In this document: positions 15,833 to 53,822 of the stretch, in pieces | Layout: each line of letters opens with the position of its first letter | Position numbering within the stretch: position 1 is the stretch's first letter | Assembly: GCA_963930775.1 (NCBI GenBank) | Contig: OZ005694.1 | Location: 2,108,001-2,172,000 of the forward strand | Source of the DNA: Cliona cf. orientalis | Taxonomy: Eukaryota > Porifera > Demospongiae > Clionaida > Clionaidae | Direction: 5' to 3' | DNA: 64,000 bases | Position numbers and translations under genes: made by a program | The notes under the pieces: model-generated | Told to the model about the DNA's origin: nothing | Database searches by the model: none | The model's input: only the letters and a program-made list of their open reading frames with translations

Positions 15833-18800
15833 TTAGTCAGTAAGTATTCGTGTAAGGGGAATAGGTAAATGACAAACTGCATTATTTGACTGCAGCAACA
15901 TAGCCACCCAGTGCTGGTTGCGAACATTAAATAAGCACAGAGGCATATGAGGAAGTGTATTTACGTCACCTGATGCAAGCAAAACCCTGTGTACATTACC
16001 ACAGTACAGAATGTGACATCTGGTACTTGTATCATATGACATAAACCTTTGTGCCAAGTCAGTAACATCTATAGCATCAGATAAAGTTAGTGTAGTTATT
16101 CCAGGATCTGATGTATCTGAAATAAAGAAAGTGTTATACTGGAATATAGGTCTATTCATTAGGAGACTGAAGGGGAAGAGTTGGTAGTCACTTCCCCACA
16201 CTCCAACTTGTAAGGCTTCAAGTAATGCTCTCTCGTACATCTGCTCATGTGATGCCTGTGTATTTGATGGAAATGCATCAGCAAAAGCTGAAATCATGGT
16301 GTGTTTGTATTTCACCATTGCATAAGCACATAACAATCTAATCAGATGTGTAAAATGCTCAGTGCCTGTAAGTGTCAGTGATAAAGCATTGTACATGCAA
16401 TTCCCATCTCCAGTAGTTCGGATAGGTTTCAGAATTTGTAATAACAGGGGATGACACCTGTTAGATACACAAGTATCCTGCATAATATCAGGTAAAGCAT
16501 CTGCATATGGAAGTGGGAAAGAGTTTAGTTGCCGTATAATCAGCTCTAATGCTGGCGTAATTGTCCTAAACTGTCCAGCAACATTTGGTGAGGTTGCAAA
16601 TGAACTCAATCGTGACAGAATTTGTGCCGGGGACTCATTTAATAACTGAGCCACAGTAGTTTGTAATTGGTTCAAATGTTGTAATTGCCTATTTGGTGCA
16701 GTCACATTCTGAGAGATTGGAAGCAACAGAGAACTGTGGTTTGGAGGACAAGTTGCACATGAATTTGATGGCCCAAGTCTATTACGCTTGACAGGAGGTG
16801 CCTGTGAATTGTTTGTTCTCATACGCTTTCTTGATTGCTGTTTGTCAAATGAAAGATGTGTACTGTTCATGTCATTATCAGATAGATGTGTGTCAACATT
16901 ATCTGCATTATTTGCAAGGGGAGCATTACTAATGTCATCACTACGGTTTGGAAAAGGAACAATATCAGTTGAGGGTGTTGGTCTAATAGCATCAACACAG
17001 TCACACCACTTAAGCAAGTCTTTATAGAATTGAAGTAGGTGAATAGCAGAAGGACAAAAGTCCCAAAGTATCATATCATGTAAGTTGCGCACACGGCTCA
17101 ATGCCACATACGCCTGCCCAGAAGCAAAGAATGATGAGTTAAGGCATATAATGGCCTTCTGGACAGTGAGTCCCTGAATCCTGTGTACAGTTACTGCATA
17201 CGCCAGTTGTAGTGGAAACTGGTGGCGGAGTATGCTGTATGAAGCACCATTTATTTCTATCCGTTGTCGGAAACGTGGAACTGGTATTCGCTGAGATGGA
17301 TTGGACATTTTTTGAATAACCACGCAATTCTGATAGAGTGCAATTACAACTGCTAGTGTACCGTTAACCCACCCAGCATCAATGTCCATATTCCTCCTAA
17401 GGATTACTCTGGCTCCAACCTTCAATTGAAGCTTGTCTGGAAGTCGTTCACGATGGTGCTGGATTCGCTGATAGTCAGCAGCTCTGAGTCCCTTCCCATG
17501 GTTATCACAATCATCAGCTTCATACTCACACATTGGTCCACTGATTCTTTCAAGACACTCGTCATTAATTTTATCACATTCTGCTCTGGTAGAACAAATT
17601 ATCACTGTTTTATCCAGATCTATCGCATTAATATCCTGCCTTTGTAATCTGGTTTGTAAAATTTCAGTCACATGGCTGTCACATATCCCTTCTCGGATTT
17701 TAGTTAACAACTGGCTTAAAATCGGATCTGTAGCACGTTTAATCTCCCGTAAGAGAAGGACTGTAAACTTGTGCCACAAGTAGGTACCAAATATGTCAAC
17801 ACCGCTAACAGCGGGTAGTTGAGCAGGATCGCCTAGCAGAATGACATGCCGTCCTCCCCATGGATGTCGAGAGGAACTACGCTTAGCAAACTTTCTGCAT
17901 AAACCCTCCATGGTACGAAAAACAAAGAAGTCAAGCATTGAAAATTCATCAATGACAATCACATCTGTTTTTCTGAGCCTAGTTGTCTGGAATGTTCCAT
18001 TTTCAAGGGAAGTGTTGCACTCCAGATCAAGGCAAAAGAAGTTATGAATGGTCGTTCCACCAATGAGATGTGCTGCTACGCCACTTGGGGCTAGCTTACA
18101 AACTACTAGGCATTGTGACCTCATTTGCTTTATCAATGCCTGCAATAAGTATGATTTCCCTGTCCCAGCAGGACCAATGATGGCCGCTTGCACTTGTTTA
18201 CCCTGATCTAATTGAGATCTGATCCAACTGAATGCTCTATACTGGGATTCAGTAAAAGTCTTCAGATACTCATTTAAATCAAAGGATTGTCTATTGGGTA
18301 GCAAATTGCCCAAATCTGAGTGTGTTGGATCACCTAAAAGTTGGTCTGTTACATGTGCTTGAGGCTCATTGATGCTATCATCAACTGTGGGCACCTCAGC
18401 CATGAAAGAATCTGCTTCATCTTCAGTGATAAAACCATGATCAGTGTACAATCTAGCCAGTTCCCTCAAAGAATCCATATGAAAACCGCGAGACAGAGCA
18501 GACTGTAAACTGGACATGGCATCAGCATGTTCGTCAAAGAGACCCTTCATGATGCAAAGCTGCATCCATGACTGTGGTGAACTAAGAAGGATATCATCAT
18601 TCTCTGAAATGGGTATGTTAAGGAGATATTTTTGTTCATAGAATTTTTCCTGCTCATCTCCTGCTGGATTAATGAAGCGATATCTTGTAATGCACATTTT
18701 TGCTCGCCTCACCCAGTATCGTCCCTCTTGATCAACTAACATTTGTCCAGGTTTGTATTTACTGAGAATCTGTTGTAATGCCTCTCCTGGAGGATTAGTG

Positions 18801-20392
18801 GCCATAAGCCAGTGATTTGACTCTAAGTCAGAAATGAGTTCAGAGTCTATCAATAAACCCTGGCTAAAGATAGCACTACCAAAGACAATATTTTCACATG
18901 ACAGTGGCCGATAATCATCTGGAGGGATGCAGAAACCTTCAGATTCAAAGTAGTTTTTGACCTCATTCTCAACTGTTGCGCTGTAACCCTCATATCTCAT
19001 GCATCTGAGGAATATCATGACCTGCACTCCATTATCAACCATCTCATTCCTGACTAACTGTAAGGCAAGTGCTAGCCGATTTATGGCATTTTTTTTTATA
19101 CGCTGGGCTGACACAAATTCTGCAAAATCATCATTGGTGGTTCGAGACCGTAAATGAGGGACATCTCCATCTTCTGATTGTGCTTCACCCTTCTTATTTT
19201 CATCACTACTGCTTTTGCGCCACCATTTAAAAAAATCTGGGTAGGTCATGTCCTTCAAATCCTCAGGACGATGTAGGTACTCATCAAATCTTGTTGACAT
19301 ATAGATATCAGATGAGCCCTCTTCTAGTTGTAGCAAATCACGTTTGCATTTCAGCATACGTTGTTTCGGTTTGATCTCGGTTGGTAGAAAGAGGACTTGT
19401 CTGGTCATTTGGCTTTGATGAAAGCTCATAAGTACCTCAATAGCCTCAACTGAGCCAATCACTCTGGTCCGTAGGTACTTTTGTGGGTCTGATGCATTAT
19501 TTGGCAGGTCAATGTTGAAACTAGGTTCAGCTTTTGAGATATATTTTGCCAAATATTGCTCATAGCCATGTTTAGCTACTCGCTGGACATTGTGGGAAGC
19601 ACCCCACAGGATGCATAGCTCTGGATTGTATGGGACCACTAGTGCATCCTCTTTGTGTCTGCGAACATACAGATATCTTATACCTTCCTCATCAAGGCAT
19701 TCCTCAGTCTGAGGTACAGAAAAAGGGAAACCATACTTACAAGCATGGAGCCTCTTGCCTCCATATCCTTTCAAGCAACGTTCGGGTACACAACGTGAGT
19801 GTCGTTGCATTTTCAGTACAATTTTGCGTAAATACGCTGAGATACTGTCATTTGGGTCGGAACTTCGTGGAACCTCAGCCATGATACAATGCCCTGGAAT
19901 GGTCCCAGGTTTACACCACAGAAGCATATGCCAGTGAACAGCTCCTCGCCTTTGGTATTCCTTTTTCCATACATAGTCCTCAACAACTCCAAATGGACCA
20001 TCACCATCACGTGATAAGATGATCTTCATGACCCATTCAAACCTCTTCTCTGCAGCCATGACGGCCACCTCAGGGGACCAACCAACTGCGTGTCTATTCT
20101 CCCAATCCCTGGCTACATCCTCATACTCCTCCTCAGTGGGAGCAGAACCCCACCCTTGCTTCAGAGTGGACTGCACATGTGGCCAACAATCATAAGCTGA
20201 CAGGGTGACAAAGAGGTCTGGCAGTCCTCTTTGCTCAGAAAATGACACCAGATCTAAAGAAAATGACTTCCAGTGCTGCCTGCTACCAGGAATTGATCGT
20301 GGTACCTCTGTTCCATAAATTGCATATGGATCAGTGGATTTTTCTGCATCAAGTACTTTGGCTGCTGTTAAATTTTCACTAAGATTTGACAC
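15833..20392 (-). pseudogene. Helitron Rep/helicase/OTU protein, C-terminal 1,519 codons
   Basis: Contains the hallmarks of a rolling-circle Helitron protein. Positions below are in this fragment. A Rep domain begins with LPDLFVTLSAYDCW (about 57-70), has the HUH motif in RGAVHWHMLLW (about 150), and the tyrosine motif YLAKYISKAEP (about 285). An SF1B PIF1-type helicase follows: Walker A IIGPAGTGKS (about 738), Walker B VIVIDEFSML, HVILLGDPAQLPA, and late motifs VTVHRIQGLTVQ and SGQAYVALSRVRN. The C-terminus has an OTU cysteine-protease domain (TTGDGNCMYNALS at about 1325, with a late NQHWVAM His region). Rep nicks and joins DNA ends, the helicase unwinds, and the OTU role in Helitrons is unclear. 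The frame continues directly from the upstream ORF except for one TGA at 20393-20395. The apparent first residue is a GTG codon, not a real start. Confidence 0.9.
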
Positions 20393-21645
20393 TCAAACAA
20401 CCCTTCTAGAGTTGTATCCTCTCAATCTCAGTTTCACCATTTCATCGTACTTGAAGAACATGTAGGCACTGTCATGTGCCCACCAGCCTCGCACATCATA
20501 TAACTTCATTTTGATATGGCTCTCAAACTTCATTGGACAGTTGTAATGCCACCCTCCAAAGCCCCAAGGAAATAAATGTGGAAAAGTTTTGGGTTCCAGG
20601 AATTTTTCACCATAATAAGTACTCACTAGCTCTTTCATTCTTTCTTGACATTCAGAGTGTTCACGAGGATATTGCCGACCTGCAACATCATCTTCCTTGC
20701 CAAATACTAATGGATAATTATCAAAGAACCTGGCATCAACTGGAAAAGCCATGCCAGCTACCTCATCCTCCAGTATCTTTTCAAGGGACAAGTTAGCCTT
20801 AGCTAAAACTTCAGGATTGATACAACCAAACTGGGGTTTCACATAGCGGAAAAGTGTCTCATAGTTACTGTAAAAGGATGAATGTAAATGATTATGACAA
20901 CGATACCAGGATAATGCTCGCTTAATTCTGAATGCTGAATCTGGATTATCACCATATACATTAATATCATCCTCTTTCACAGCCAAAAACCCAAACATAC
21001 CATGAAAATGGCGATCAAGCTTAGTTATACTATTTACTTCACCAATAGTGTGCTGATATTGAGATATCGAAGCCTTCTTTACTGTGGTCGAAAAAAGACC
21101 ACATAGAGAAACATGCCCTGTTTCATACCTGTTCCTTAATTCTGCAATGGGTTTTGGTTTACTCATATCCCATAATTTAACTGGTTTCATAGTCATACTT
21201 TCTGAGGAGTCTAACACATCACCAACATAGAGGTCAGGTGCCATTTTATTGGCTTTGCAATATAAACACGAGTACCATTTATACTTCATGCCATCATGCT
21301 CAAAAGTCAGGTAACAATTATTATGTACACTTTTCAAAAACGCATTAGCAGGTGCATCTTTTGGCCGAACTCCCTTTGGTGGATCAATCATATAACTACC
21401 TTTAGTATATCCTGCACCCCAGAGAACGCGGCCACATTGCCAGCATATTCTGTTTGTAAGAGGTTGTTGGTCAAATGTACGTTGCATGTTAATTCGTTGA
21501 CTGAGCTTAGTATGTAGATCATCATTAATATTCAATGAAGACAATGATGTATCCCAGTCAATTGGCAGAATACACCGACTAAAATCAATGGTAGAGTAGG
21601 CATGTCTGCCTACATCATACCCTCCGTCCACTGTTGTACCCGCTG
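20393..21645 (-). pseudogene. Helitron protein, N-terminal central part (zinc-binding region)
   Basis: About 417 codons in frame with the downstream Rep/helicase ORF, ending at a single TGA (20393-20395). It includes RICWQCGRVLW and YSCLYCKANK, a CxxC...CxxC arrangement found in the N-terminal (DUF6570-like) region of Helitron proteins. The pre-Rep block KTFPHLFPWGFGGWHY follows, with KLRLRGYNSRR before the stop. It has no ATG at the proper position. Its first codons after the TIR insertion read AGTTVDGGYDVG, which continues the GRPxGTT repeat of the fragment at 22458-23177. This shows the two belong to one protein split by the insertion at 21646-22457. Confidence 0.85.
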
Positions 21646-24250
<2,605 letters not shown>

Positions 24251-24504: not shown

Positions 24505-25194
24505 CCCAGGTTCTCAAGCCCAGGCTCGGCCATTATATATAGGTCCTACATGACACTAGGGCAGAAAGGCTAGAATCTTCACAATTATGCAAAAGGCATA
24601 AACAAATCATGTCAACTCAATTTTATACGTAGTCTATGGCCACTTTGATCAGACGTAGTCTCGTGCCCAGCCCCCTTTCATGCACGAGCGCTAGGCACGA
24701 GACTAGATCAGACCCTCTTCAGGTTCTGCGAGGGTTGGCTACGCCACACTAGGGAGAATGAGGCTCACTGGTCCTACCTATTGTCTGAGTGCTCATGCAC
24801 ATTAGCTGCTTTGAGCCCAGGCTCGCCCACTACAGGCCCTGTATGACACTAGTTATTCAGTAGCACAAAGGCAAGGATCTTCATAACCATATTTTATTTC
24901 ATTCCAAAGCATGCAAAGCACAAAATTCATGTGAACTCACGGTTTGAGAGCAGATCAACCTGGATTTCATGTTCGCCAATAACTTAAGCGAACCGGAACT
25001 CTTGCTCATAATTTACATGCCAGTCTAATTAATATACAGTGAAGTAGCGTAGCGTAAGCCCACCGCTTCTCTCGATGTCTTAGGCAGCCTGTCTTCTTGA
25101 TGTCTGTCTCAAGCTTTAATGTGGAAATGGTCGTCACGTATGGCGTGCAATAAGGGACTTTCCAAACAGCGAAAACTTGGCAAATAACACAAAA
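24505..25194. repeat. Duplicated segment with a GTCTCGTGCC hairpin
   Basis: Two related blocks (about 24510-24620 and 24805-24935) share AGCCCAGGCTCG, TGACACTAG, GATCTTCA-type motifs and a GTGAACTCA / GTCAACTCA end. Between them is a 10-bp perfect stem GTCTCGTGCC / GGCACGAGAC (24658-24703), flanked by GATCAGAC on both sides, suggesting a small foldback element. No gene. Confidence 0.45.
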
Positions 25195-28100
25195 AGTGAC
25201 GTTTCTCTGATATGAAATTGAAAATCAAAATTTTGAAACGATTCAATATCAGGCTTTCTTCCATAGTTCATGCCTGTAAAAGAATTATTTCACAATATCA
25301 GTTCGTAGGATAGAAATGCATTATTTACATTACATTACATTACATTACATTACATTACATTAATTACATTACATTACACACACACATATTCTTTTATCTT
25401 ATGGTGTAACAAGCTAAACCACAACCTAAGATAAAAGAATTTTATCAAGCAGTAATTAGTTAACGGTATGTCACCATTTTCTATCATACATGTCTGCTAC
25501 AATAGGTCAGGTATGTGGTAAGGTAGAAAATCTCAAGTTGCAAACATTGATTACTATAATGTCATAATACTAATGCGTAATATATCTGAGAGTGATTTGG
25601 GGCTTGTATACGTAATCATCCCCTAGTCTAGATCCAACGTAAGGAGCATTGCCCATGGAATGTTGTTGGTGTATGTAGACTGCCTTCCTAGCATCACTGG
25701 CAGTGAAAAAAAAGATGGAAAAAAATTGGCCCCGGGTGAGATTCGAACCAGTGCACGCATTTGACACTGGTTGGCAGACACTGAGCTTAACCATTGCACC
25801 ATCTGGACAGTAGTCATTTCCTTCATACTTTAGTGGTCAGAAACTACTACGACTCTTATTTCAAAATTGAAAGTGAAAATCAAAAATCTGAGACGATTCA
25901 ATTATTATTTTTGATCCACTCTACATGCTGATATAAAAATTATTGCACAATACCTTTTCCTGTGCTTCGAATGAATTATTTACATTACATTACATTACAT
26001 TACATTACATTACATTAATTACATTACATTACACGCTCACATATTCTTTTATCTTAGGTTGTAACAAGCTAAACCACAACCTAAGATAAAAGAATTTTAT
26101 CAAGCAGTAATTAGTTAACGGTATGTCACCATTTTCTATCATACATGTCTGCTACAATAGGTCAGGTATGTGGTAAGGCAGAAAATCTCAAGTTGCAAAC
26201 ACTGATTACTATAATGTCATAATACTCTAATGCGTAACATATCTGAGAATGACTTGGGGCTTGTATACGCAATCATCCCCTAGTCTAGATCCAATGTAAG
26301 AAGCATCGCCCATGGAATGTTGTTGGTGTATGTAGACTGCCTTCCTAGCATCACTGGCAGTGAAAAAAAAGATGGAAAAAAATTGGCCCCGGGTGGGATT
26401 CGAACCAGTGCACGCATTTGACACTTGTTGGCAGACACTGAGCTTAACCATTGCACCATCTGGACAGTAGTCATTTCATGCATACTTTAGTGGTCAGAAA
26501 CTACTACGACTCGTATTTCAAAACTGAAAGTGAAAATCAAAAATCTGAGATTATTCAATTATTATTTTTGATCCACTCTACATGCTGATATAAAAATTAT
26601 TGCACAATACCTTTTCCTGTGCTTCGAATGAATTATTTACATTACATTACATTACATTACATTACATTACATTAATTACATTACATTACACGCTCACATA
26701 TTCTTTTATCTTAGGTTGTAACAAGCTAAACCACAACCTAAGATAAAAGAATTTTATCAACAAGTAATTAGTTAACTGTATGTCACCAGTTCCTATCATA
26801 TATGTCTGCTACAATAGGTCAGGTATGTGGTAAGGCAGAAAATCTCAATTTGCAAACATTGATTACTATACCCACTATAACGTCATAATACTAATGTACA
26901 ACGTGACATCTGAGATCTGTGTATTTGAGAGTGACTTGGGGCTTGTATATGTAATCATCCCCCAGTCTAGATCCAACATAAGGAGCATCACCCATGGAAT
27001 GTTATTTGTGTATGTAGACTGCCTTCCCAGCATCACTGGCAGTGAAAAAAAAAGATGGAAAAAAATTGGCCCCGGGTGGGATTCGAACCAGTGCACGCAT
27101 TTGACACTGGTTGGCAGACACTGAGCTTAACCATTGCACCATCTGGATAGAAGTCATTTCCTGCATGCTTTAGTTGTCAGAAACTACTACGACTCGTATT
27201 TCAAAACTGAAAGTAAAAATCAAAAATCTGAGACGATTCAATTATTATTTTTGATCCACTCTACATGCTGATATAAAAATTATTGCACAATACCTTTTCC
27301 TGTGCTTCGAATGCATTATTTACATTACATTACATTACATTACATTACATTACATTTATTACATTACATTACACACTCACATATTCTTTTATCTTAGGTT
27401 GTAACAAGCTAAACCACAACCTAAGATAAAAGAATTTTATCAAGCAGAAATTAGTTAACGGTATCTCACCATTTCCTATCATACATGTCTGCTACAATAG
27501 GTCAGGTATGTGGTAAGGCAGAAAATCTCAAGTTGCAAAAATTGATTACTATAATATCAATACCAATGCGTAACATATCAGGGGCTTGTATATTATGTAA
27601 TCATCCCCTAGTCTAGATCCAACGTAAGGAGCATCGCCCATGGAATGTTGTTGGTGTACGTAGACTGCCTTCCCAGCATCACTGGCAGTAAAAAAAAAAA
27701 AGACGGAAAAAAATTGGCCCCGGGTGGGATTCGAACCAGTGCACGCATTTGACACTGGTTGGCAGACACTGAGCTTAACCATTGCACCATCTGGACAGGA
27801 GTCATTTCCTTCATACTTTAGTGGTCAGAAACTACTACGAGTCATATTTCAAAACTGAAAGTGAAGATCAAAAATCTGAGACGATTCAATTTTTATTTTT
27901 GATCCACTCTACATGCTGATATAAAAATTATTGCACAATGTCTTTTCCTGTGCTTCGAATGCATTATTTACATTACATTACATTACATTACATTAATTAC
28001 ATTACATTATACGCTCACATATTCTTTTATCTTAGGTTGTAACAAGCTAAACCACAACCTAAGATAAAAGAATTTTATCAAGCAATAATTAGTTAACGGT

Positions 28101-29544
28101 ATGTCACCATTTTCTATCATACATGTCTGCTACAATAGGTCAGGTATGTGGTAAGGCAGAAAATCTCAAGTTGCAAACATTGATTACTATAATGTCATAA
28201 TACTAATGCGTAACATATCTGAGAATGACTTGGGGCTTGTATACGTAATCATCCCCTATACTAGATCCAACGTAAGGAGCATTGCCCATGGAATGTTGTT
28301 GGTGTATGTAGACTGCCTTCCTAGGATCACTGGCAGTGAAAAAAAAGATGGAAAAAAATTGGCCCCGGGTGGGATTCGAACCAGTGCACGCATTTGACAC
28401 TGGTTGGCAGACACTGAGCTTAACCATTGCACCATCTGGATAGTAGTCATTTCCTTCATACTTTAGTGGTCAGAAACTATTACGACTCGTATTTCAAAAT
28501 TGAAAGTGAAAATCAAAAATCTGAGACGATTCAATTATTATTTTTGATCCACTCTACATGCTGATATAAAAATTATTGCACAATACCTTTTCCTGTGCTT
28601 CGAATGAATTATTTATATTACATTACATTACATTACATTACATTACATTAATTACATTACATTACACGCTCACATATTCTTTTATCTTAGGTTGTAACAA
28701 GCTAAACCACAACCTAAGATAAAAGAATTTTATCAACAAGTAATTAGTTAATGGTATGTCACCAGTTCCTATCATATATGTCTGCTACAATAGGTCAGGT
28801 ACGTGGTAAGGCAGAAAATCTCAACTTGCAAACATTGATTACTATACCCACTATAACGTCATAATACTATTGTACAACGTGACATCTGAGATCTGTGTAT
28901 TTGAGAGTGACTTGGGGCTGTAATCATCCCCCAGTCTAGATCCAACATAAGGAGCATCACCCATGGAATGTTATTTGTGTATGTAGACTGCCTTCCCAGC
29001 ATCACTGGCAGTGAAAAAAAAAGATGGAAAAAAATTGGTCCCGGGTGGGATTCGAACCAGTGCACGCATTTGACACTGGTTGGCAGACACTGAGCTTAAC
29101 CATTGCACCATCTGGATAGAAGTCATTTCCTGCATGCTTTAGTGGTCAGAAACTACTACGACTCGTATTTCAAAACTGAAAGTGAAAATCAAAAATCTGA
29201 GATGATTCAATTATTATTTTTGATCCACTCTACATGCTGATATAAAAATTATTGCACAATACCTTTTCCTGTGCTTCGAATGCATTATTTACATTACATT
29301 ACATTACATTACATTACATTACATTTATTACATTACATTACACACTCACATATTCTTTTATCTTAGGTTGTAACAAGCTAAACCACAACCTAAGATAAAA
29401 GAATTTTATCAACAAGTAATTAGTTAACGGTATGTCACCAGTTCCTATCATATATGTCTGCTACAATAGGTCAGGTATGTGGTAAGGCAGAAAATCTCGA
29501 CTTGCAAACATTGATTACTATACCCACTATAACGTCATAATACT
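25195..29544. repeat. Tandem array of about 650-bp tRNA-SINE units, left part
   Basis: Six units can be anchored on ATTCGAACCAGTGCACGCAT at about 25741, 26398, 27079, 27729, 28373 and 29050, giving periods of 644-681 bp. Each unit contains the tRNA-like head (minus strand), a T-rich Pol III stop, a unique body, a 20-bp inverted repeat (for example 26043-26095) and an (ATTAC)n tract of variable length. Units are highly similar but not identical, with shared variants in alternate units. The short ORFs (about 60-100 aa) on both strands are unit-length by-products. Confidence 0.9.
27066..27147 (-). ncRNA. tRNA-like head of the array unit (representative copy)
   Basis: On the minus strand a Pol III A box (TGGTGCAATGG) and a perfect B box (GGTTCGAATCC) sit at tRNA spacing, followed just past the 3' end by a T-run (AATTTTTTTCC) that could terminate Pol III. 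The acceptor and T stems do not pair fully, so this is a tRNA-derived SINE head, not a working tRNA. Equivalent heads occur in all twelve units; the last one (about 41741) has lost B-box bases (GGATTTGAACC). Confidence 0.65.
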
Positions 29545-29632
29545 TAGCCTCGTCCCCAGCCTCCCCAATCTTTGTTCAACGCACGCGAGAAAAAGAGGGG
29601 GAGCCTGGTACGCGAAGTCACGTGCGCTACGT
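29545..29632 (+). repeat. Left 88-bp terminal inverted repeat
   Basis: Exact reverse complement of 38235-38322. It starts at the edge of the ATAATACT duplication and ends at GCTACGT, after which the two arms diverge. Confidence 0.95.
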
Positions 29633-30089
29633 TTAAAGGCGAAGGATGGCGAAGGGTGATTATCGCGCGTAGGTGAGCGCGGTTTGCGGTGGGTACCGGT
29701 GGACGTAATGCCTCGCCCACTCAATCACATTATAGCTCACGCGCACGCCGCGTGCTTACTCCTCTCTCAATACAGATCGAGTGCTATCATCCCTGGAGCT
29801 GTATCCAAGAGTTCAGTACGTCGTCGAGTCACTTCGTCGTAGCCTTAGCTATACCAGTTTGACTCAAGTATAGCCTAGTCCACATCTACGTAGCTCAGTG
29901 CTAGATATAGCCATCCCTCAAGTATACAATTGCCATCTGTACACGGTACACATATTATTATACACAATAGCATTGATATGTATAAAATTTTAATATTATT
30001 ACATATCATAGTATTAAATATTAAAATTAATGTTGACACACAAAAACTAGCTGTATTTACTATTCATATACATGTAGTGCAAGCTAAGC

Positions 30090-33029
30090 ATGGCAGAGAA
30101 GATAGCGTACTTGAGAAAGAGGTACCGTGAGACACCATCAGCCGACAAAAAAGTCAAGTTTTCTGATATCCACAGTGATCTAACCACTCAATTCCCTTTG
30201 GTATCATGGAATTCACGGATGGTTTCTGAAACGGTGCGGAGTGCTTTTCCACAGTCGTCCAGTAAGCAGCATGGGAAGTACCATACCACTTATGTGCATG
30301 GCATTGAAGTGAACGAACCAGATCTTGCTGATCCTCATTCAACTCTCCTTGTCAGTTTGAAACAGTCGCTAGAAGCAGAAAAGGCCAAGAATGATCAATT
30401 GGTTCTGAACACTCGGAAACTGGAGGAAGAAAATGCCACACTACGAGGTCTCTTAGCAACAGCTTTTCAACCACATGTCATTGAGAGTCAAGTCCAGTCA
30501 ATGATGAATTCAGCTCGTAGTGCTTATCACGGTCCTGATACAGTTGACCATTTTAATAGTTTTTCTATCGATCACCTGATTAGTGAGCTTCACACACACG
30601 CCCCAGATGTTTTTCGCTTGTTTAATTTGATTGGTAATGTTGATCGTCATGAAGATGCCGACAACACTAAAATTGCACAACTCCGATCCGTTTCATCACT
30701 ACTAAACCTCCTTAAATGTCGCTCAATCAAGGTTCTCGGGGTACAGCTTCTTCTGACATTCATGTTAATTGCTCGTGCTACAAATAAACAAGTGAGCAAT
30801 ATAACACTGTTTCAATCATCATACAATAACTGCTATAATAATGAATAATAATTAATACTGTAGGCTATCACAGTTATGAATCATTATGGTGCTTGTGTCT
30901 CTTACACTACTGCATGGAAGTATCTCAAGCAATTGACACAAGAGGCCAGATATCTAGAGGTGGTTAGGGAAGGGCACTGGCAGTGGGTGTATGATAATCT
31001 TAATTATCTCTTGTCAATTCGGCACGAACGTGAAGGTAGGTACACATTATTATACATAATATTGACAGGACACCAATATTGTGGTCAGATTATTTGGGGG
31101 AGGGAAGGGGGGTGCATGGTGGCAGCAAAAGACCTCGGCTAAGTTCCCCCCCCCCCCTCCAAATCCAATCTATAAGTTGCTACACTCACATGCACATGTA
31201 CATGCATGTACCAAATCAACACTTACATGTATGTACAGATCATCACTCCAGCATGTTGAATGCAACTGCACGCCTGGCCATTAGAATCAGGTACGTACTT
31301 GCCAGATTTTCCTTTTGAATGGACAGACACCAACCCTCAGCGTAGCAGACAAACTCTCACCACCGATGATTTCCTACCAAGTAGTGAGGATGCCATGAAA
31401 TTACAGCAAAGTGCTGCCCAGTATCTAATGAGCTTTCTAGTAGAGAATTTCACTGACCTCACAGATCTCCAATGTTATGTACCACCAATGGAGTCAATAC
31501 ATCCACCACAGAAAAGTGAGGTGATTCCCATGAAGATTCTATTCAAGGATGAAAAGTTAAAAAGTGACACGATTGACATATTGACTCAGTTGATGGAGGA
31601 TAGCAATATTGATGGCACACCCCAGGTATGTACATACTCTAATAGGCATTTGAAGCAATATACAATGCATGTATTGTTATTGATATCACACACATGTACA
31701 CATGTACACATGCATACACACATGCACACACATACATGAACACACAACAAAAATAGTCGATAATTGGAGACCAACTAACATGCAAAGTTATCAGAGGCTG
31801 TAAGCTGTGGAGGCAGGGTGAGATTGAGCAAAAGAACAGGCTGTCATGGGCCAATGAAGTGCCAGGTGTGGTTTATTTGGAATATAGTGTAGCATGCATG
31901 GTTACGTACATGTACTTTTAAATGCAGGAGACTTTCACTTCCTCTGGGAGTGTCTGAGAGTCCTATACATGATCTTGTGGGGTACTCCTGCACAGCCAGG
32001 TAGCCTGTGTAACCTACGAGAACTGCTAAATAGAAAGCAAGTAGACAAAGCAGTGAAGGTATTCAGTACAGGAGATGAGTTTCTACTACACTGTTTCAAG
32101 GCACACTTAAAGGCCAGGATTTATACATTTTTTCAAGTTAGCACTGCTAATGATAAAATTGTACACGACTGCTCACGTCAGTGGCTTCACAACACGGCTA
32201 TAAAGCTTCTACCCCACACTGTTATGCCAGCAAAATCTGATGACCCAGTATACAGCCTCCATCGCTGCTTTCTCCACCTGGGGTTCCTATATGTGGATTT
32301 AAGAAATGCCATTAGATGGGAAAAAGGGCCACACATAATCAGGCACTGGAAGCTATGGCTACCTCGCTTCATAGCAACTGGTTGCAAGAATTATGCAACC
32401 GAGAGTGTTCATCTTTTGGCAGGTCTATGTGCTGACCTACCAAAACATATGGCGTACATCAATACACACAATCGTACTGTCAATGTCGAGGGGAAGCCAG
32501 GACGAGGGAAGCCCATCGACCAAATGATGGAACATTACATACTGTATGTACATTTTTTGGGCATGATTTGCATGTATGCATGCATTGCACACATATAAAA
32601 TACATTATACACGCATATGTACTTATCTTTTGCTATTCCAGGGTATTGAAGCAAGCAATGAAAGCAGGAGGAGGAAATCTGACGCCTAATCACATAGAGG
32701 ATTTGTCTTTGTGTGCCCTTTTCCTCATGTCTGCAGCAAAACAGGTCGATCAAGCCTACAATGCACATCAGTCCTATAAACACACAACTCGAGATGCTGA
32801 TAGGGATGTAAATAAGATAGTAGCAGTTTTGTTGGACAAACAAGCAGTAGTTCCTGTTGAAGACCGCACAAGTCCAACGTTTGAGGATCCTACTCCTAAC
32901 GGCTTAAAGAAGATGTGCAACACGTCTTGGATACAGGAAACGTTGTCACGAAACCCTACTGAAGACCTGAGCATGGAAGAAGAGAACCATATTGATGAAT
33001 TTGATTATGAAATCTGTGATGCACATTGA
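30090..33029 (+). CDS. DUF6589-like protein, six exons, candidate transposase
   Basis: Exons: 30090-30791, 30864-31035, 31239-31625, 31757-31865, 31928-32543, 32642-33029, all with GT-AG borders and consistent phase except for one 4-bp excess in exon 3. Intended length is about 789 aa. Exon 1 has a coiled coil (SLKQSLEAEKAKNDQLVLNT, residues about 85-130). Exon 2 encodes WQWVYDNLNYLLSIRHERE, and exon 3 begins with DHHSSMLNATARLAIRIR. Exon 4 has the hallmark GDQLT motif, and exon 5 has GDFHFLW, then a conserved block (FLYVDLRNAIRWEKGPHII, INTHNRTVNVEGKPGRGKPI) and DQMMEHYI. These match my recollection of DUF6589 proteins of fungi and sponges. GTAC is doubled at 31291-31298, shifting frame between RLAIRIR and YLPDFPFEW, so this copy may be inactive. 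ATTAAA at 33085 could be the polyadenylation signal. Biochemical function is unknown. Confidence 0.75.
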
Positions 33030-33130
33030 ACTACATGTCATATATCAATACCACTTTAGTATTGTTACTCTCGTTATCTCCTGTATTAAAGCACGTAAAT
33101 GAATATTACATGAATGATAAAATCAACAAA

Positions 33131-35113
33131 CTAAGCACACCTTCGACGTTTACACGGAACATATTGGTATAAAACATCAGAAATTACATTAAAAAATCTG
33201 TCCTTGATGTCAGTGCGAATACCATATAAAGAAATGTCAGAAGCAGTCTCAAGGTATTCAGCTTGCAAACATAGTTCATCAATTGTCGAGTCAGGACACA
33301 CAAAGTCAACACCAAACATACTAAGGCACGGATTTTCAACAATGTAAGCTTTTCTCTCTGCATATAAGCGCTCCTTGAGAGTCTTCAAGAGCTGTTCATT
33401 TACTTTCCTAATAGCTGACCGTTTTGGACGTCTTGTTTGCTTGCCCAGTTCCAACACATTTAGCCGGTCATTAGACGAGATTGCTGATGGTGTACAGACG
33501 TCACAGCATCTCAATGGCGGTATGAACTCATTATACTCTTCACCCATTCCACTTAGTAACGTTTTCCTTCGACAGATCTTATCATTTACAAAGTTGGAGA
33601 GAGTTTTATCCTGGATTTTGCTTCTGCTACTTTTTTTGTCACTATAGAACAAATGACCTCTAGCAGGGCACCCATTGCGACCAGCACGGCCGAACAACTA
33701 TACATATTAGAATAATAATACATAATACAATAGAGTTGCTAACATACTAGACTAAGTTCTTGCTACACATTGTACCTGATAAAGCTCAGTTGCCATTTTT
33801 GGGATACCATAAACAACCACTACTTCAACATCTGCTATGTCCATCCCCTACAATTAATTTACACATCATGATTATTATACCCCGTGCCTGAAATATAGTG
33901 TGCATACCATCCCAAAAGCTACTGTCGCTACAAGACATCTTAAAGTGGAGTCATCGCTTTTAAACAGGTGCTGAAGAGCAGTCTTGGTATTCTGTGAGAT
34001 GCTTGCATGATACATACCAACATATTCTTTCTTAGTAGAAGCGACTTGTAGCATATGAAATATCTTCCATGCTTGGTGTTTCGTTTGTGTGAACACTAAC
34101 GTTTTAGGCACACTTGCAGGTGATGTAATCTTTAGAGATTTCACCAGACCATCTAAATCTCTCTACGGTCATAATGCTCAATAAAAAAGATACTTTATTT
34201 TAACATTGAAGCTTGCTTACATTCAAAGTCTTGATTGGACTACAAGATAAGTAGATGTTTGGACGATCAAGGTCACAGTGCACAATCACCGGATTACTGA
34301 GCTGAAGTGAACTAATAATTGTAGCTTCTACTTCAGGAGGGGCTGATGCAGTTAGAGCCATAAATGGCACATCTACTAGTGCTCTTACTCCTCCCATTCT
34401 ATCAAGGCTGTCCGAAAATCTTTCCCCCTAATACAACATTCTACATATTATATAATCTATATTATACAAAATACGAAAAAATCTGACCATTCCACTATGC
34501 AATGGGCTTCGTCAATAGCCACAAGTGCAAGGTGCTTCTTGAATACACTATTGGAGAGAGTATCTCTCCAAACAGGAAGCTGAAGAGACTCAGGCGACAA
34601 AAAAACTAATATCATGCATTATCAAAAGTAATAATATTAATAATCAAAACTGTAAAATCATACCAAATCGATACTTTCCCTTAGAAACATCAGATACATC
34701 AGATGAACATGCCCGAACAGCACTAACACCTATATCACGTAGTTGCTTTACCTACACATTTTTTTAATAGTCCAAGGATACTCCTAGTCGCCCGCTGCAT
34801 ATAGCTAACTCACCTGCTGATCCATAAGACTGATAAGTGGGCTTACAACAACTCCAATTGCTTTCTTATTCACAGCTAAGGGGACCAAAAACATACAGAG
34901 AGACTTTCCTCCACCGGTGGGCATGCGCACAAAAACATCCTTGCCGTGCACAACCGGAAGGAGAGCTTCCAATTGTCCAGGTCTGAAGGTAGTAAACTTG
35001 AAATGACCCTGTAAAGCTTCTTTCAGTTTCCTGTAGCCCACACAGGTTTCCATTTCTGGAATGCTAAGCCCGTCCAACTTCAAGTCGCAATCACACAACG
35101 CACCCATGGCCAT
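33131..35113 (-). CDS. RecQ-like DEAH helicase, seven exons
   Basis: Exons: 35113-34814, 34751-34664, 34605-34488, 34427-34221, 34162-33908, 33847-33776, 33697-33131. The ATG at 35113 is the first true start (the longer frame begins at TTG). All helicase motifs are present in order: FTTFRPGQLEALLPV (motif 0), MPTGGGKSLC (I), VVVSPLISLMDQQ (Ia), LVAIDEAHCIVEW (II, DEAH), FMALTASA (III), KTLVFTQTKHQ (IV), VATVAFGMGMDIADVEVVVV (V) and LYQLFGRAGRNGCPARGHLF (VI). A RecQ zinc subdomain follows (CRRKTLLSGMGEEY, then CCDVC). About 535 aa in total, a short RecQ without obvious HRDC. Exon lengths total 1,607 nt, one short of a full frame. The phase break falls at the G-run starting exon 4 (34424-34428), suggesting a lost G. 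RecQ enzymes unwind DNA 3'-5', here probably serving transposition. It converges with the DUF6589-like gene, leaving about 100 bp between them. Confidence 0.85.
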
Positions 35114-35333
35114 TTGAAACGATCCCGCCAAGACTCAAATTTGAAATAATATTACTTCACACGTGACAGGCCAAATAATGTGACACTAGTCTACTATTTA
35201 AATTATTTATGAGACAATCGAGAGTAACAGTACTTGTATTTTTCATCGCTTTTATATACCATGCAAAGGCAATCTTACAGTAGCTTATTTTAATACTCCA
35301 GCTTACCTTCGTGGCTCGTGGACATCCCGGTGT

Positions 35334-36651
35334 CCGGGAATATGAATTCGGTGGACTGGAATGGTGGAATGGAACGGTGGAGTGGACTACTGGAGTGGAG
35401 TACTGGACTGGATTACTGGAGTGCCACGCCCATGCACAAATGCACAATTTGGTCCAACTTCCATGGCTACAAATTTGATTTCTAAACGCTAAGAGGCTGG
35501 CAGGGGATGGATGACATCACTTGGTGACCAAGTCTACCTAGCTAGTCATGATGTCAGAATGAGGCTGCCATCAGAGACTCACTTGCTGACCGTTGTATAG
35601 CTGGCTCTCTTAAATTATAAATATGTAACGCCACGCTCAGTCCCGATCCCCACGTCACACTCGTTGGCAGACTCACTCGCGTCTACGGGTGGTCGCAGGA
35701 CCCCGGACTGGCCCCCACCTGTAACGACTGCTCCCTGCCTGCGCTCTCTTACAGTAGTTGTAGGTATTAAACAAGGGGAAATACTAGGGAGAACTGAACA
35801 ATACACCTGCACACACTATTTATACAGTCCATGACGCAATACAGGAAGTAATCAGTTACATAATGTTTCCTGTTTGTTACAAATAGACTGTGAAATGGTA
35901 ATTAGGACATGGGTACCATGCAGGTATTAACCTATTCCTGTTCACAAAGAGGATATCAAATTACTCAATACTGATGAAGCCTGGGTGCACGTCTGACTCA
36001 CTGACATGTAGCGGGTACATGTATTACAGGACATGCCTCAAGGGTCGGGAGTGTATAGACAGCGGACCTGGACTAGGTCTGACCGAGAAATACTACTTTC
36101 TCTAATACAAATTTGACACTGAACAATAGTAACAGACCTTCATCTAATCTATGCTCAGATCATGATCAGATTATGCTTCTGGCAGCAGTCTGTGACAACG
36201 GGTCGGGTAGCTAGCATAATCCCTGGTTCATGCTCAAGTTTATGAGTTCCCTGAGGTATAGTCTAGCTATGTAGTACCATATGGATGAGTCTAATGAGCC
36301 TCTTTCAGGCTCTGGGGCTTGTAGTACTCTAGACTACCTCGAGCTCCATTGTATACAGAGTTGTGTTATCATAGTACAGTACTGTGCCTCCGAGTCCTGC
36401 CACTCTCTGAGCATACTAAGGGGAAGCTATAGCATTTACAAGTGCATTGGCTAGCTAGATGATTGCAGATGGGGAGATTTAATGGCAGCCTTTTAGTGTT
36501 GATTAGTCTAACTAATTTCGATCTAGCCATGCCAGGACCAGTGTATTTGTGGGCGTGGCACTCCAGTAATCCAGTCCAGTACTCCACTCCAGTAGTCCAC
36601 TCCACCGTTCCATTCTACCATTCCAAGTCCACTGAATTCACATACCCCCGG
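35334..36651. mobile_element. Nested 1.3-kb element with long TIRs (GGAGTGGA repeats)
   Basis: Ends form an inverted repeat of about 100 bp: CCGGGAATATGAATTCGGTG at the left, and GTGAATTCAGTGGACTTGGA-like sequence in the reverse complement of the right. Both contain the short motif CTGGAGTGGAGTACTGGAC and then GTGCCACGCCCA. Possible 3-bp duplication TGT on each side. The interior has no recognised coding sequence. It lies just upstream of the RecQ-like start, in the right arm of the larger transposon. A related single end is at 43335-43425. Confidence 0.6.
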
Positions 36652-36659
36652 TGTCCTAA

Positions 36660-38234
36660 CGGTAAACGTCCCATCCAAATTACGTCCGGGGGACGTAAAC
36701 GGATTAACGAGCTACGTCTGGGGGGACGCATGTCGCCATCGAATATTGTCCGGTGGGACGCGATTCACCGTTGAACTGCGTCCCACAGCGTAGAATGTCG
36801 TCCCCTTCACAGACTTACGCTGCTCGCGGCTGCCGGGCTCATAACAAGAGTATGGTCTTGACAGTACTAGTAGTAAGATAAAATTAATGTTGTTGAATAC
36901 TATCTTATATTATTATAGCTACTTATAATTACTTATCATGATCCATGAATCAAAAGATATTATACACGCATCAACAACAAGAATGGCAGTGCCATAGTTC
37001 AGTGTACGTCTCAAGGAACAGAGAAGAATCCAACACAGCATATATTATAATATATGATACCAATGCTCACACTTGTCGCATTGAATCATGTCTCCATACA
37101 GTGACTCTGGCATTTGGCAACTACAAAATACTTCTACCTCCCAATACTAGGGGGAAGTGATTGTTATGCACCTGTCAATTTCAAGCCCCACTACTCCCTA
37201 TAGGGGTGAGGGTCAGGCATTTCAACGTCCACTGATGCAAATTTTGGCCTAAAGGGTGGGGCACTTGATCCAATAGGGAATAGGAAGGGCAGTTGATCGC
37301 ATAATCATTGCATATGTGCACTAATACATCATTAATTATTACGCATGGCAAAATCAATACACAGCTCCAATAGAGGGGGCAATTAGGAGGTTTTGCTATA
37401 ATTTTGGCCCAGGGGTGGAGATTTTTAACTTCCTGGGTGTCAAATCCCCACCCTAGCCCCTATGGGGGGTAGTAGGGCTTGGGTGCATTACGTCGGCTGC
37501 ATTTTCTTGTGGTTGGAAACCGCACAAGTTCTTTTTTTTCCTGAAACACTGCAAGAGTTGATTTCTCATCTGAGTGTTACTGTGCATGGAAGTATATATT
37601 GACATATACTGTTTCACTGTCATAATAATATTATTATTTATTAGCTAGCTACATACCGTGCTCTTCTCTCCATCATTCTCATCATCTTGCCAGCGGCTTC
37701 CCATCTCAGCCCCTTAATTCACAAGAGGGACTCGGAGGAAGGGGCTGGGCACCCAGACTAGCTACTTCCCATCAATGCTTATCTTCTCTCCACCATCTTC
37801 CTCTCCATTAATGCCTAACCCTTTGGCGCCTTTTTCATTGGGGCGCTCGCGGTGGCGGGCGGACGTTATTCCGTTGCGTGGGACGGATATCGTTAATTGA
37901 TGACGTCCCCCCGGACGTATATATTTACGTCCCCCGGACGCGATTCTACGGGGGACGCTATACGGCATGACACCGGGACGATTCCATTCGGATCCTCGCC
38001 GCGTTTTCGCTGCTCCTTCCCGACAAAGGTATCGTTCCCCGTGCCATTTGAGATAATATATTTGGCAGGAATTCACGGACAATAGAAAACTGCACAACTC
38101 AAGCATAAAACCAGCGGAACGATAAGCCGCGTTCTTACCGGGAACTTTGCGGTTAGCCACGTGGCGGTTTGCGATCCTGCCCCCTGTACCCTCCGCCTAC
38201 GTTAATTTATTTCAAACGCTAAGACGCGTTTATG
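36660..38234. repeat. Right-arm region with ACGTCC / GGGGACG motif clusters
   Basis: Two clusters (about 36665-36815 and 37860-38000) contain many copies of ACGTCC, GGGGACG and GGGACGC in both orientations, for example TACGTCCGGGGGACGTAAAC. The AT-rich stretch between has a CCCCA(T/C)CCC-rich segment (37160-37490). No gene was recognised; the 132-aa minus ORF at 37762-38160 has no recognisable domain. Confidence 0.5.
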
Positions 38235-38322
38235 ACGTAGCGCACGTGACTTCGCGTACCAGGCTCCCCCTCTTTTTCTCGCGTGCGTTGAACAAAGATT
38301 GGGGAGGCTGGGGACGAGGCTA
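38235..38322 (-). repeat. Right 88-bp terminal inverted repeat
   Basis: Exact reverse complement of 29545-29632, ending at GAGGCTA and followed by the ATAATACT duplication. Confidence 0.95.
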
Positions 38323-41300
38323 ATAATACTAATGTACAATGTGACATCTGAGATCTGTGTATTTGAGAGTGACTTGGGGCTTGTATATGTAATCATCCCC
38401 CAGTCTACATCCAACATAAGGAGCATCACCCATGGAATGTTATTTGTGTATGTAGACTGCCTTCCCAGCATCACTGGCAGTGAAAAAAAAAGATGGAAAA
38501 AAATTGGCCCCGGGTGGGATTCGAACCAGTGCACGCATTTGACACTGGTTGGCAGACACTGAGCTTAACCATTGCACCATCTGGACAGAAGTCATTTCCT
38601 GCATGCTTTAGTGGTCAGAAACTACTACGACTCGTATTTCAAAACTGAAAGTGAAAATCAAAAATCTGAGACGATTCAATTATTATTTTTGATCCACTCT
38701 ACATGCTGATATAAAAATTATTGCACAATAGCTTTTCCTGTGCTTCGAATGCATTATTTACATTACATTACATTACATTACATTACATTACATTTATTAC
38801 ATTACATTACACACTCACATATTCTTTTATCTTAGGTTGTAATTAGGTTGTAACAAGCTAAACCACAACCTAAGATAAAAGAATTTTATCAACAAGTAAT
38901 TAGTTAACGGTAGGTCACCAGTTCCTATCATATATGTCTGCTACAATAGGTCAGGTATGTGGTAAGGCAGAAAATCTCAACTTGCAAACATTGATTACTA
39001 TACCCACTATAATGTCATAATACTAATGTACAACATGACATCTGAGATCTGTGTATTTGAGAGTGACTTGGGGCTTGTATATGTAATCATCCCCCAGTCT
39101 AGATCCAACATAAGGAGCATCACCCATGGAATGTTATTTGTGTATGTAGACTGCCTTCCCAGCATCACTGGCAGTGAAAAAAAAGATGGAAAAAAATTGG
39201 CCCCGGGTGGGATTCGAACCAGTGCACGCATTTGACACTGGTTGGCAGACACTGAGCTTAACCATTGCACCATCTGGATAGAAGTCATTTCCTGCATGCT
39301 TTAGTGGTCAGAAACTACTACGACTCGTATTTCAAAACTGAAAGTGAAAATCAAAAATCTGAGACGATTCAATTATTATTTTTGATCCACTCTACATGCT
39401 GATATAAAAATTATTGCACAATACCTTTTCCTGTGCTTCGAATGCATTATTTACATTACATTACATTACATTACATTACATTACATTACATTTATTACAA
39501 GCTAAACCACAACCTCAGATAAAAGGATTTTATCAACCAGTAATTAGTTAATGGTATGTCACCAGTTCCTATCATATATGTCTGCTACAATAGGTCAGGT
39601 ATGTGGTAAAGCATAAAATCTCAACTTGCAAACATTGATTACTATACCCACTATAATGTCATAATACTAATGCACAACGTATATCTGGGGCTTGTATATG
39701 TAATCATCCCCCAGTCTAGATCCAACATAAGAAGCATTACCCATGGAATGTTATTTGTGTATGTAGACTGCCTTCCCAGCATCACTAGCAGTGAAAAAAA
39801 GATGGAAAAAAAATTGGCCCCGGGTGGGATTCGAACCAGTGCACGCACTTGACACTGGTTGGCAGACACTGAGCTTAACCATTGCACCATCTGGACAGTA
39901 GTCATTTCCTGCATACTTTAGTGGTCAGAAACTACTACGACTCGTATTTCAAAACTGAAAGTGAAAATCAAAAATCTGAGACGATTCAATTATTATTTTT
40001 GATCCACTCTACATGCTGATATAAAAATTATTGCACAATACCTTTTCCTGTGCTTCGAATGAATTATTTACATTACATTACATTACATTACATTACATTA
40101 CATTAATTACATTACATTACACGCTCACATATTCTTTTATCTTAGGTTGTAACAAGCTAAACCACAACCTAAGATAAAAGAATTTTATCAACAAGTAATT
40201 AGTTAACGGTATGTCACCAGTTCCTATCATATATGTCTGCTACAATAGGTCAGGTATGTGGTAAGGCAGAAAATCTCAACTTGCAAACATTGATTGCTAT
40301 ACCCACTATAACGTCATAATACTAATGTACAACGTGACATCTGAGATCTGTGTATTTGAGAGTGACTTGGGGCTTGTATATGTAATCATCCCCCAGTCTA
40401 GATCCAACATACGGAGCATCACCCATGGAATGTTATTTGTGTATGTAGACTGCCTTCCCAGCATCACTGGCAGTGAAAAAAAAAGATGGAAAAAAATTGG
40501 CCCCGGGTGGGATTCGAACCAGTGCACGCATTTGACACTGGTTGGCAGACACTGAGCTTAACCATTGCACCATCTGGATAGAAGTCATTTCCTGCATGCT
40601 TTAGTGGTCAGAAACTACTACGACTCGTATTTCAAAACTGAAAGTGAAAATCAAAAATCTGAGACGATTCAATTATTATTTTTGATCCACTCTACATGCT
40701 GATATAAAAATTATTGCACAATACCTTTTCCTGTCCTTCGAATGAATTATTTACATTACATTACATTACATTACATTTATTACAAGCTAAACCACAACCT
40801 AAGATAAAAGAATTTTATCAACCAGTAATTAGTTAATGGTATGTCACCAGTTCCTATCATATATGTCTGCTACAATAGGTCAGGTATGTGGTAAGGCAGA
40901 AAATCTCAACTTGCAAACATTGATTACTATACCCACTATAATGTCATAATACTAATGCACAACGTATATCTGGGGCTTGTATATGTAATCATCCCCCAGT
41001 CTAGATCCAACATAAGGAGCATTACCCATGGAATGTTATTTGTGTATGTAGACTGCCTTCCCAGCATCACTAGCAGTGAAAAAAAGACTCAGTGGAAAAA
41101 AATTGGCCCCGGGTGGGATTCGAACCAGTGCACGCATTTGACACTGGTTGGCAGACACTGAGCTTAACCATTGCACCATCTGGACAGTAGTCATTTCCTG
41201 CATACTTTAGTGGTCAGAAACTACTACGACTCGTATTTCAAAACTGAAAGTGAAAATCAAAAATCTGAGACGATTCAATTATTATGTTTGATCCACTCTA

Positions 41301-42135
41301 CATGCTGATATAAAAATTATTGCACAATACCTTTTCCTGTGCTTCGAATGAATTATTTACATTACATTACATTACATTACATTAATTACATTACATTACA
41401 CGCTCACATATTCTTTTATCTTAGGTTGTAACAAGCTAAACCACAACCTAAGATAAAAGGATTTTATCAACTAGTAATTAGTTAACGGTATGTCACCAGT
41501 TCCTATCATATATGTCTGCTACAATAGGTCAGGTATGTGGTAAGGCAGAAAATCTCAACTTGCATCTGATTCTGTGTATTTGAGAGTGACTTGGGGCTTG
41601 TATATGTAATCACCCCCCAGTCTAGATCCAACGTAAGGAGCATCACCCATGGAATGTTATTTGTGTATGTAGACTGCCTTCCCAGCATCACTGGCAGTGA
41701 AAAAAAAGATGGAAAAAAATTGGCCCCGGGTGGGATTTGAACCAGTGCACGCAATTGACACTGGTTGGCAGACACTGAGCTTAACCATTGCACCATCTGG
41801 ACAGTAGTCATTTCCTGCATACTTTAGTGGTCAGAAACTACTATGACTCGTATTTCAAAACTGAAAGTGAAAATCAAAAATCTGAGACGATTCAATTATT
41901 ATTTTTGATCCACTCTACATGCTGATATAAAAATTATTGCACAACACCTTTCCCTGTGCTTCGAATGAATTATTTACATTACATTACATTACATTACATT
42001 AATTACATTACATTACACGCTCATATATTCTTTTATCTTAGGTTGTAACATTACATTACACACTCACATATTCTTTTATCTTAGGTTGTAACATTACATT
42101 ACACACTCACATATTCTTTTATCTTAGGTTGTAAC
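38323..42135. repeat. Tandem array of tRNA-SINE units, right part
   Basis: Continuation of the left array after the transposon. Heads are anchored at about 38519, 39213, 39829, 40513, 41120 and 41741, with periods of 607-694 bp. Two units lack about 60 bp at the (ATTAC)n/inverted-repeat junction (near 39490 and 40775). The array ends in three 60-bp subrepeats of CACATATTCTTTTATCTTAG plus GTTGTAACATTACATTACAC (about 42010-42135). Confidence 0.9.
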
Positions 42136-52798: not shown

Positions 52799-53822
52799 TT
52801 TAAGGTACCATTAAATTGCGTGGGCGTGAGGTGGGGGATATGACACCTAAACCACATCAAAGTCATTAGTGAGGTGCATGTTGTGTAACCACGCCCTTTT
52901 AATTGCACAGGTCTCAGGGGTGTGGCTGCTAGAGCCGGAAGTGTTCATTTAATATCCTCCATGGACCGGAAGCCGAGCCGGAAGGGAGGGGCCAGGCCAC
53001 GCCCAAAACAGCCCCACCCTGTTCCCCAAGGACCACCATTCTCAATCAAGTGCCTACTAACCACCGGATGTCCACCGGAAGCCCACAATCAATCCCAATT
53101 AAAACACACAGCTTCCTCAATGCCAAAACACACACAAACACTTGGAGGCCGTTCTGCCACACCGCCCACGCAAGAGCTCACCTCATTTCCTGTGTGGGCG
53201 GAGTAACAACACGTCATCGCAACCACATCCGCTTCAAACCATCGTCAGCTTCCGTCCAGCCGTACGGGCCCCTCGATCGCACCGCCGTACAGTGCCTCAT
53301 TAACAGACATGGCCTCACCTTTGACCTCCTGCCACGCCCCCAAAGCCTCCTCGCGGGGTTCAAAGGTCACCACCGCTTCCGGGACACGCCCACCTATCGC
53401 CGAGTCCAAGTCCCAGGCGCCGATGTCCAAGCACTGGCCCGTGAAGCCACGCCCAATCGGAAGCAATAAAACCTGCATTAACGCACACGCATACACTCCA
53501 CACAGTGCCAGGAACACGCCCACATGCTTAATTAGGCCTAATAAGCTTTTTTTTTTTTTTTTTTTTTTTTTTTGTCGTTGCGGTTAATAGTTAAGAAAGA
53601 ATGCTTTGATCTTGCTTTGATGTGGGCAATTACCGGCCTTTTCTTCAGGGGCCACTTCCGGTCGCTAATTACACGCGCATAATCATCCCTGGCCGATTCT
53701 GGACACGCCCACCTTCGACCAAAAGCACTCGTATGGCCTCTTCGGCCACGCCCCTTCACGATTCGCTAATTGAATTAGCCATTCCTGACGCTCACGCCCA
53801 CGCAATTAAATGGTACCTTAAA
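52799..53822 (+). mobile_element. TTTAAGGTACC element, copy A (1,024 bp)
   Basis: Ends are inverted repeats of about 32 bp: TTTAAGGTACCATTAAATTG at the left and its near-complement at the right, each followed by CGTGGGCGTGAG. Much GC-richer than its flanks and unusually dense in CCACGCCC/GGGCGTGG. It contains a T-run (53548-53572). No convincing protein: open frames exist on both strands because of composition. No matching target duplication could be seen for this copy. Confidence 0.65.

Follow-up and report, generated by a model that had tools for sequence, protein, structure and literature searches.

In assessing a DNA transposon that carries a helicase gene, the described systems of similar make-up are the natural points of reference. 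Helitrons possess neither terminal inverted repeats (TIRs) nor target-site duplications (TSDs) and combine Rep/HUH with a PIF1-type helicase. AcademH was reportedly named by Kojima in 2020 and, going by the title of that paper, is said to occur in animals and fungi, and the nuclease of AcademX is of the XPG type. In a 2023 article, these elements are tied to a helicase and a nuclease, with TSDs of 9 or 10 bp in AcademH and of 3 or 4 bp in AcademX (PMC10045372). Here we consider an element at positions 29545-38322 of a 64,000-nucleotide stretch of DNA from the sponge Cliona cf. orientalis (OZ005694.1, positions 2,108,001 to 2,172,000; hereafter, the window), which belongs to contig C6 of the 216.8-Mb assembly that was searched. 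The element pairs a gene for a DUF6589 protein with a gene for a RecQ-like helicase. With a probability of roughly three in four (about 0.77), we read it as a DNA transposon of the cut-and-paste type, some 6.1 kb long and swollen to 8.8 kb, in which DUF6589 would be the DDE transposase and RecQ its dedicated partner, and which most likely belongs to the AcademH lineage or to a sister of it.

The window element is a real transposon insertion with a genuine empty site. As described in the initial annotation, its 88-bp TIRs are perfect (one inverted-repeat detection gives 89 bp because one base of the duplication pairs too), and the 8-bp sequence ATAATACT borders the element on both sides (Table 1). 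The duplication could indeed be checked against intact neighbouring units: the flanks, when joined with a single ATAATACT, align to two of these units (26649-27122 and 40080-40553) along their full 474 bases, with 98.5% identity and no gap, which is direct evidence of both the insertion and the 8-bp duplication. The alignments of the remaining units to the joined flanks are gapped or partial. The site of insertion is an array (window 25325-42135) of tandem units of about 650 bp with a TTACA microsatellite, most of which contain ATAATACT.

The 8.8 kb do not, as was claimed at first, represent one complete element; they represent an element of about 6.1 kb enlarged by later nested insertions. 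In particular, 2.64 kb are absent from the sister copy L031, which is 6099 bp long, is 99.6% identical to the window copy over 5787 aligned columns and has one CCGG at the corresponding site; this inserted segment harbors, in turn, a second TIR element (Table 1). Both genes of the window copy are broken by frame-changing indels relative to the sisters L031 and L032: exon 3 of the DUF6589 gene has 4 additional bases, and the helicase gene is 1 base short near position 34406. The window copy, while young, is intact no longer and is lightly decayed; the coding parts of L031 and L032 contain other indels of their own. L031 (C6:2188159-2194657) is located 42 kb downstream of the window copy, in the opposite orientation and without any TSD.

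The two spliced, convergent genes that had been recognized initially are retained in the gene models, which were built from sequence alone and have GT-AG introns. The identity of the first gene, originally proposed from a few motifs, is confirmed by the match of its exon 5 to the Pfam family DUF6589 (PF20231) at 95.2 bits (curated cut-off, 27 bits); the same profile gives 98.6-206.6 bits on 7 scanned homologues and 102.1 bits on L051, a more distant copy discussed below. For exon 3 of the window copy, alternative in-frame acceptors are possible at 31285 or 31306. DUF6589 occurs in fungi. Protein searches, in which about 8000 candidates sharing most words were scored, yielded 13 DUF6589 relatives, two of them named Branchiostoma proteins. 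The search for relatives among viral and prokaryote contigs gave 79 and 16 pattern matches, respectively, none of which was confirmed at the sensitivity used. Run against PDB sequences, the DUF6589 profile gave 9 distinct ones at E <= 10, the best of these (0.25) being a coiled-coil protein and histone H3, and the Rfam scan gave 0 matches.

The second gene is, by its sequence, a RecQ-family helicase. It contains the motifs TGGGKS and DEAH, matches RecQ and WRN chains, and scores 247.5 bits against TIGR00614 (RecQ subfamily; cut-off 219.8) when 10 X are placed over the broken stretch. For the RecQ zinc-binding region (PF16124, cut-off 25), the window copy falls below the cut-off at 21.5 and L051 lies above it at 30.8.

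This pair of genes recurs throughout the genome. The genome search with the window TIR, in which 40 of 230 candidates were scored, listed at least 43 matches, both window ends included. Both genes, whole or broken, are present in all eight long copies that were selected through their TIRs, namely, the window copy, L031-L036, and L037/L038 (the two ends of one copy); TIR copies without the two genes but with a hAT- or P-type transposase, named in the initial annotation as the finding that would speak against the pairing, were not seen. Between the window-like families, protein identity is 45-56%, and the exon layout is common to them. Among the four loci chosen by gene (L051, L052, L054 and L055), both ends and the duplication were found in L051 and L055; these constitute a second clade, with identities to the window copy of 24-28% in DUF6589 exon 5 and 29-44% in the helicase pieces. 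The ends of both clades start with TAG(C/T)CTCG.

After genome matches no more than 4 kb apart on one strand had been joined, the 122 matches for DUF6589 gave 102 loci and the 147 for the helicase gave 114; with 102 of 338 candidates scored in the DUF6589 search, the number of its loci is at least 102. A RecQ match lies within 6 kb of 85 of these 102 loci when the first helicase query is used, compared to a chance expectation of about 0.006 per locus for that query, the loci being related by copying and so not independent events. The helicase query from the second clade added 14 of the remaining 17 loci, bringing the count to 99 of 102, and every one of the 99 pairs is convergent. These data support RecQ as a near-constant partner of DUF6589, the role in which it had been cast from the window alone. 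The independent occurrence of the two genes, anticipated as a possible objection, is seen in part: three of the scored DUF6589 loci show no RecQ match nearby after both helicase queries, and 29 of the 114 helicase loci (first query) are without a listed DUF6589 locus, L031, L032 and L040 among them, which do carry DUF6589 exons. The genome search with TIGR00614 (26 of 528 candidates scored) returned mostly other RecQ loci; RecQ loci away from DUF6589 are expected of host helicases and other elements. Such loci are what one would find if host RecQ and DUF6589 genes had been captured between two unrelated TIRs, but this explanation appears extremely improbable: the same two genes in the same orientation are found again in families whose exons are about 24-75% identical and whose ends and TSDs match, and chance gene capture is contradicted by the recurrence in 8 of 8 long copies and at 99 of 102 DUF6589 loci.

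As to the initial question of whether the two genes recur together inside similar TIRs with 8-bp duplications, the genes do so, but the duplications are mostly of 9 bp. Specifically, among ten long copies, six have a 9-bp duplication (L033, L034, L036, L037/L038, L051 and L055), three an 8-bp one (the window copy, L032 and L035) and one, L031, none. The stagger of 8 or 9 bp varies even within one family (8 in L035, 9 in L036). Eight short copies with like ends (235-631 bp) all show 9-bp duplications, seven of these copies coming from a search that required a duplication and one (L049) found without that condition; the duplications of L047 and L048 are reverse complements, and these two copies may represent a single insertion. 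Five of the eight are in loci that were queried with the exons of the DUF6589 and helicase genes, and no match to these exons was found there. None of the 17 duplications read is TTAA. In addition to that of the window copy, an empty site is available for L051, whose uninterrupted target is found within the window at 52800-53197, 99.7% identical and ungapped. This stretch is part of the left arm of a large foldback repeat (window 52799-57007; 775-nt arms, 95%).

The substitution pattern points in the same direction for both genes when families are compared: dN is 0.39-0.56, with dS either saturated, giving no estimate, or above 2, and both genes have therefore long been under constraint. Within families, the dN/dS ratios for DUF6589 and the helicase, respectively, are 0.41 and 0.36 (window copy and L032), 0.35 and 1.10 (L033 and L034), and 0.20 and 0.62 (L035 and L036); for the window copy and L031, the ratio for DUF6589 is 0.74, with few changes. 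Such mixed ratios are expected of copies that decay after insertion and do not by themselves prove recent helicase function.

Which protein, then, would act as the transposase? That the element conceals a hAT or P transposase was rejected on the basis of the Pfam scan of six exon pieces, which detected DUF6589, DEAD, ResIII, Helicase_C and RecQ_Zn_bind along with weak unrelated names, and no other transposase family. The recurrence of DUF6589 inside TIRs with TSDs, its conserved D/D/E motifs and one DDE-transposase-like model support it as the best transposase candidate, as had been proposed. D362 is invariant in 13 of 13 alignment rows and E602 in all 7 rows that have letters at this position. 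The RNase H-fold DDE/D site for which structure prediction had been suggested is predicted in one of two fold models: in the model of a DUF6589 homologue, a D-D-E triad is placed in an RNase H-like core, strand order included, and structure comparison ranks Hermes, Tn5, RAG1 and the P-element first, with modest scores and with Hermes as the nearest; the second, poorer model has no transposase match in the structure comparison.

Several observations weigh against this reading. The best Foldseek hit of the first model (E = 5.3e-3) is not significant, the second model is without a transposase match, as just described, and one DUF6589 homologue lacks the first D. At the level of the copies, L052 has the gene pair with only the right end recognized, no end pair was seen at L054, and, among 20 regions, seven (L039, L040, L043-L046 and L050) showed no end pair with a duplication of at least 7 bp in the search that counted only pairs with a duplication. 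The observations on the protein, along with the fact that no biochemistry on DUF6589 was found, would be compatible with an element moved by an outside hAT- or P-type transposase, DUF6589 being non-catalytic, for example, a DNA-binding protein. We consider this quite improbable, given that Pfam identified no other transposase family in the scanned exons, that the only model with a formed core puts DDE recombinases first and that D362 and E602 are invariant in the rows noted above; also, RecQ proteins are, to our knowledge, not known for strand transfer.

If DUF6589 is the transposase, the duplications and the predicted fold suggest the following scheme. The DUF6589 protein would bind the TIRs of about 80-105 bp that start with TAG(C/T)CTCG, pair the ends and cut there, and would then join the element to target positions staggered by 8 or 9 bp. 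The RecQ helicase, as a conserved dedicated partner, would most likely open or remodel the ends or the gapped joined product, and the short copies with matching ends would be mobilized in trans. This would provide a mechanism-level reading for a Pfam family of unknown function and links it to a RecQ helicase, the pairing of the two being strongly conserved. Because a single genome offers about 100 such loci along with short derivatives and two empty sites that are proven, it becomes directly testable why a RecQ helicase would be carried by a transposon of the DDE type. The gain is evidence that DUF6589 acts as the DDE-type transposase of a two-gene element that is conserved; should this be true, proteins whose sole annotation is DUF6589 could be renamed as transposases or transposase-derived.

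Table 1. Features of the window element, in window coordinates
Feature	Position	Strand	Basis or remark
Left TSD, ATAATACT	29537..29544		sequence and empty site
Left TIR, 88 bp, starts TAGCCTCGTCCCCAG	29545..29632	+	inverted-repeat detection; genome matches
DUF6589 gene, exon 1 (N-terminal part)	30090..30791	+	gene model; matched in L031-L037
DUF6589 gene, exon 2	30864..31035	+	gene model, conservation; candidate catalytic D at 30993-30995 (YDNLN)
DUF6589 gene, exon 3	31239..31625	+	start (acceptor) deduced by comparison with sister copies; 4 bases in excess at 31291-31294
DUF6589 gene, exon 4	31757..31865	+	gene model, conservation; candidate catalytic D at 31769-31771 (GDQLTC)
DUF6589 gene, exon 5	31928..32543	+	Pfam PF20231, E 4.5e-27; candidate catalytic E at 32530-32532 (EHY)
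DUF6589 gene, exon 6, with stop	32642..33029	+	gene model
RecQ-like helicase gene with seven or more coding exons, edges approximate	33131..35113	-	Pfam/TIGR profiles, gene model; matched pieces 35113-34814, 34751-34665, 34603-34487, 34400-34221, 34162-33908, 33847-33776, 33697-33134
Nested insertion	35331..37972		bordered by CCGG (35327-35330 and 37973-37976); L031 and L032 lack it
Second TIR element within nested insertion	35336..36648		arms 35357-35432 and 36550-36625, 99%; CGGTGTCC flanks 35328-35335 and 36649-36656; limits read from printed sequence
Right TIR, 88 bp, perfect inverse of left TIR	38235..38322	-	inverted-repeat detection
Right TSD, ATAATACT	38323..38330		sequence and empty site

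Other mobile elements are found nearby and elsewhere in the genome. At window 24656-24707, a tiny element, about 52 bp long and ending in TAGTCTCG on either side, has 9-bp flanks that agree in 8 of 9 positions by eye, the exact test having found no pair; it may be a much-reduced remnant from the second clade. The minus strand at window 15833-21646 contains Helitron-like genes, namely, a 1519-aa frame with Helitron_like_N, a PIF1 helicase and a weak OTU match and, upstream of it, a 417-aa frame without a Pfam match. On contig C4 (L053, C4:3096500-3103500), positions 804-4793 of the minus strand hold a single 1329-aa frame in which a RecQ helicase is followed by a long region without a Pfam match, a region that we take, by eye, to resemble a MULE-type transposase; two more 1329-aa frames, with nearly equal RecQ scores, are located on C6 and C10. 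This is possibly another RecQ-bearing type of transposon.

The window element can be compared with several known systems. From Helitrons it differs in having TIRs and a TSD and in that its helicase is of the RecQ family. The 8-bp TSD of the window copy, together with Hermes as the nearest fold of the first model, is reminiscent of hAT elements, but Pfam gives DUF6589 and no hAT or P domain, a helicase gene is present and the 9-bp TSD is the commoner one. Zisupton/KDZ elements likewise share the 8-bp TSD of the window copy (PMC12730594) and differ by the lack of a KDZ domain among the Pfam matches and, again, by the length of the commoner TSD. With KolobokH, the element would share the combination of a DDD/E transposase with a RecQ helicase, and in the rhodophyte Kolobok-1_CCri the RecQ gene is on the complementary strand, as it is here; however, Kolobok has 4-bp TTAA TSDs, unlike the 8-9-bp duplications without TTAA of the window group, and the KolobokH helicase is downstream of the transposase domain (PMC9587614). 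AcademX possibly belongs to the same superfamily as the window element but differs in its nuclease and its TSDs of 3-4 bp (PMC10045372). No XPG nuclease is among the Pfam matches of the exons of the element, and the genome yields just four XPG_I matches, none in the window's part of C6, so AcademX offers no bridge for comparison.

There remains AcademH. The initial statement that no standard superfamily is defined by this pair probably does not hold, for AcademH is described as encoding a helicase and as having 9- or 10-bp TSDs (PMC10045372). The likeness consists in a DNA transposon with a helicase and a TSD of about 9 bp, the difference in the 8 bp of the window copy and two others. That DUF6589 and RecQ make up a DDE superfamily of their own, apart from Academ, characterized by TAG(C/T)CTCG termini, TSDs of 8-9 bp and a helicase gene that is separate and convergent, would agree with the TSD range (8-9 rather than 9-10 bp), with the convergent separate genes at 99 of 102 loci and with a search for DUF6589 or PF20231 that found no paper on the subject in the literature collection covered. 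We regard this as unlikely, since DUF6589 is known from fungi, two DUF6589 proteins come from Branchiostoma and AcademH is said by its title to occur in animals and fungi, and since a helicase with TSDs of about 9 bp is how AcademH is described (PMC10045372). A similarly doubtful version would have the mobility of such a distinct superfamily depend on the convergently linked, dedicated RecQ, the partnership making it possible for members of one family to use a stagger of either 8 or 9 bp. Thus, the DUF6589-RecQ pair is probably not a new superfamily and, with AcademH compared by description only, that is, by helicase and TSD, it is most likely a member of AcademH or a close relative.

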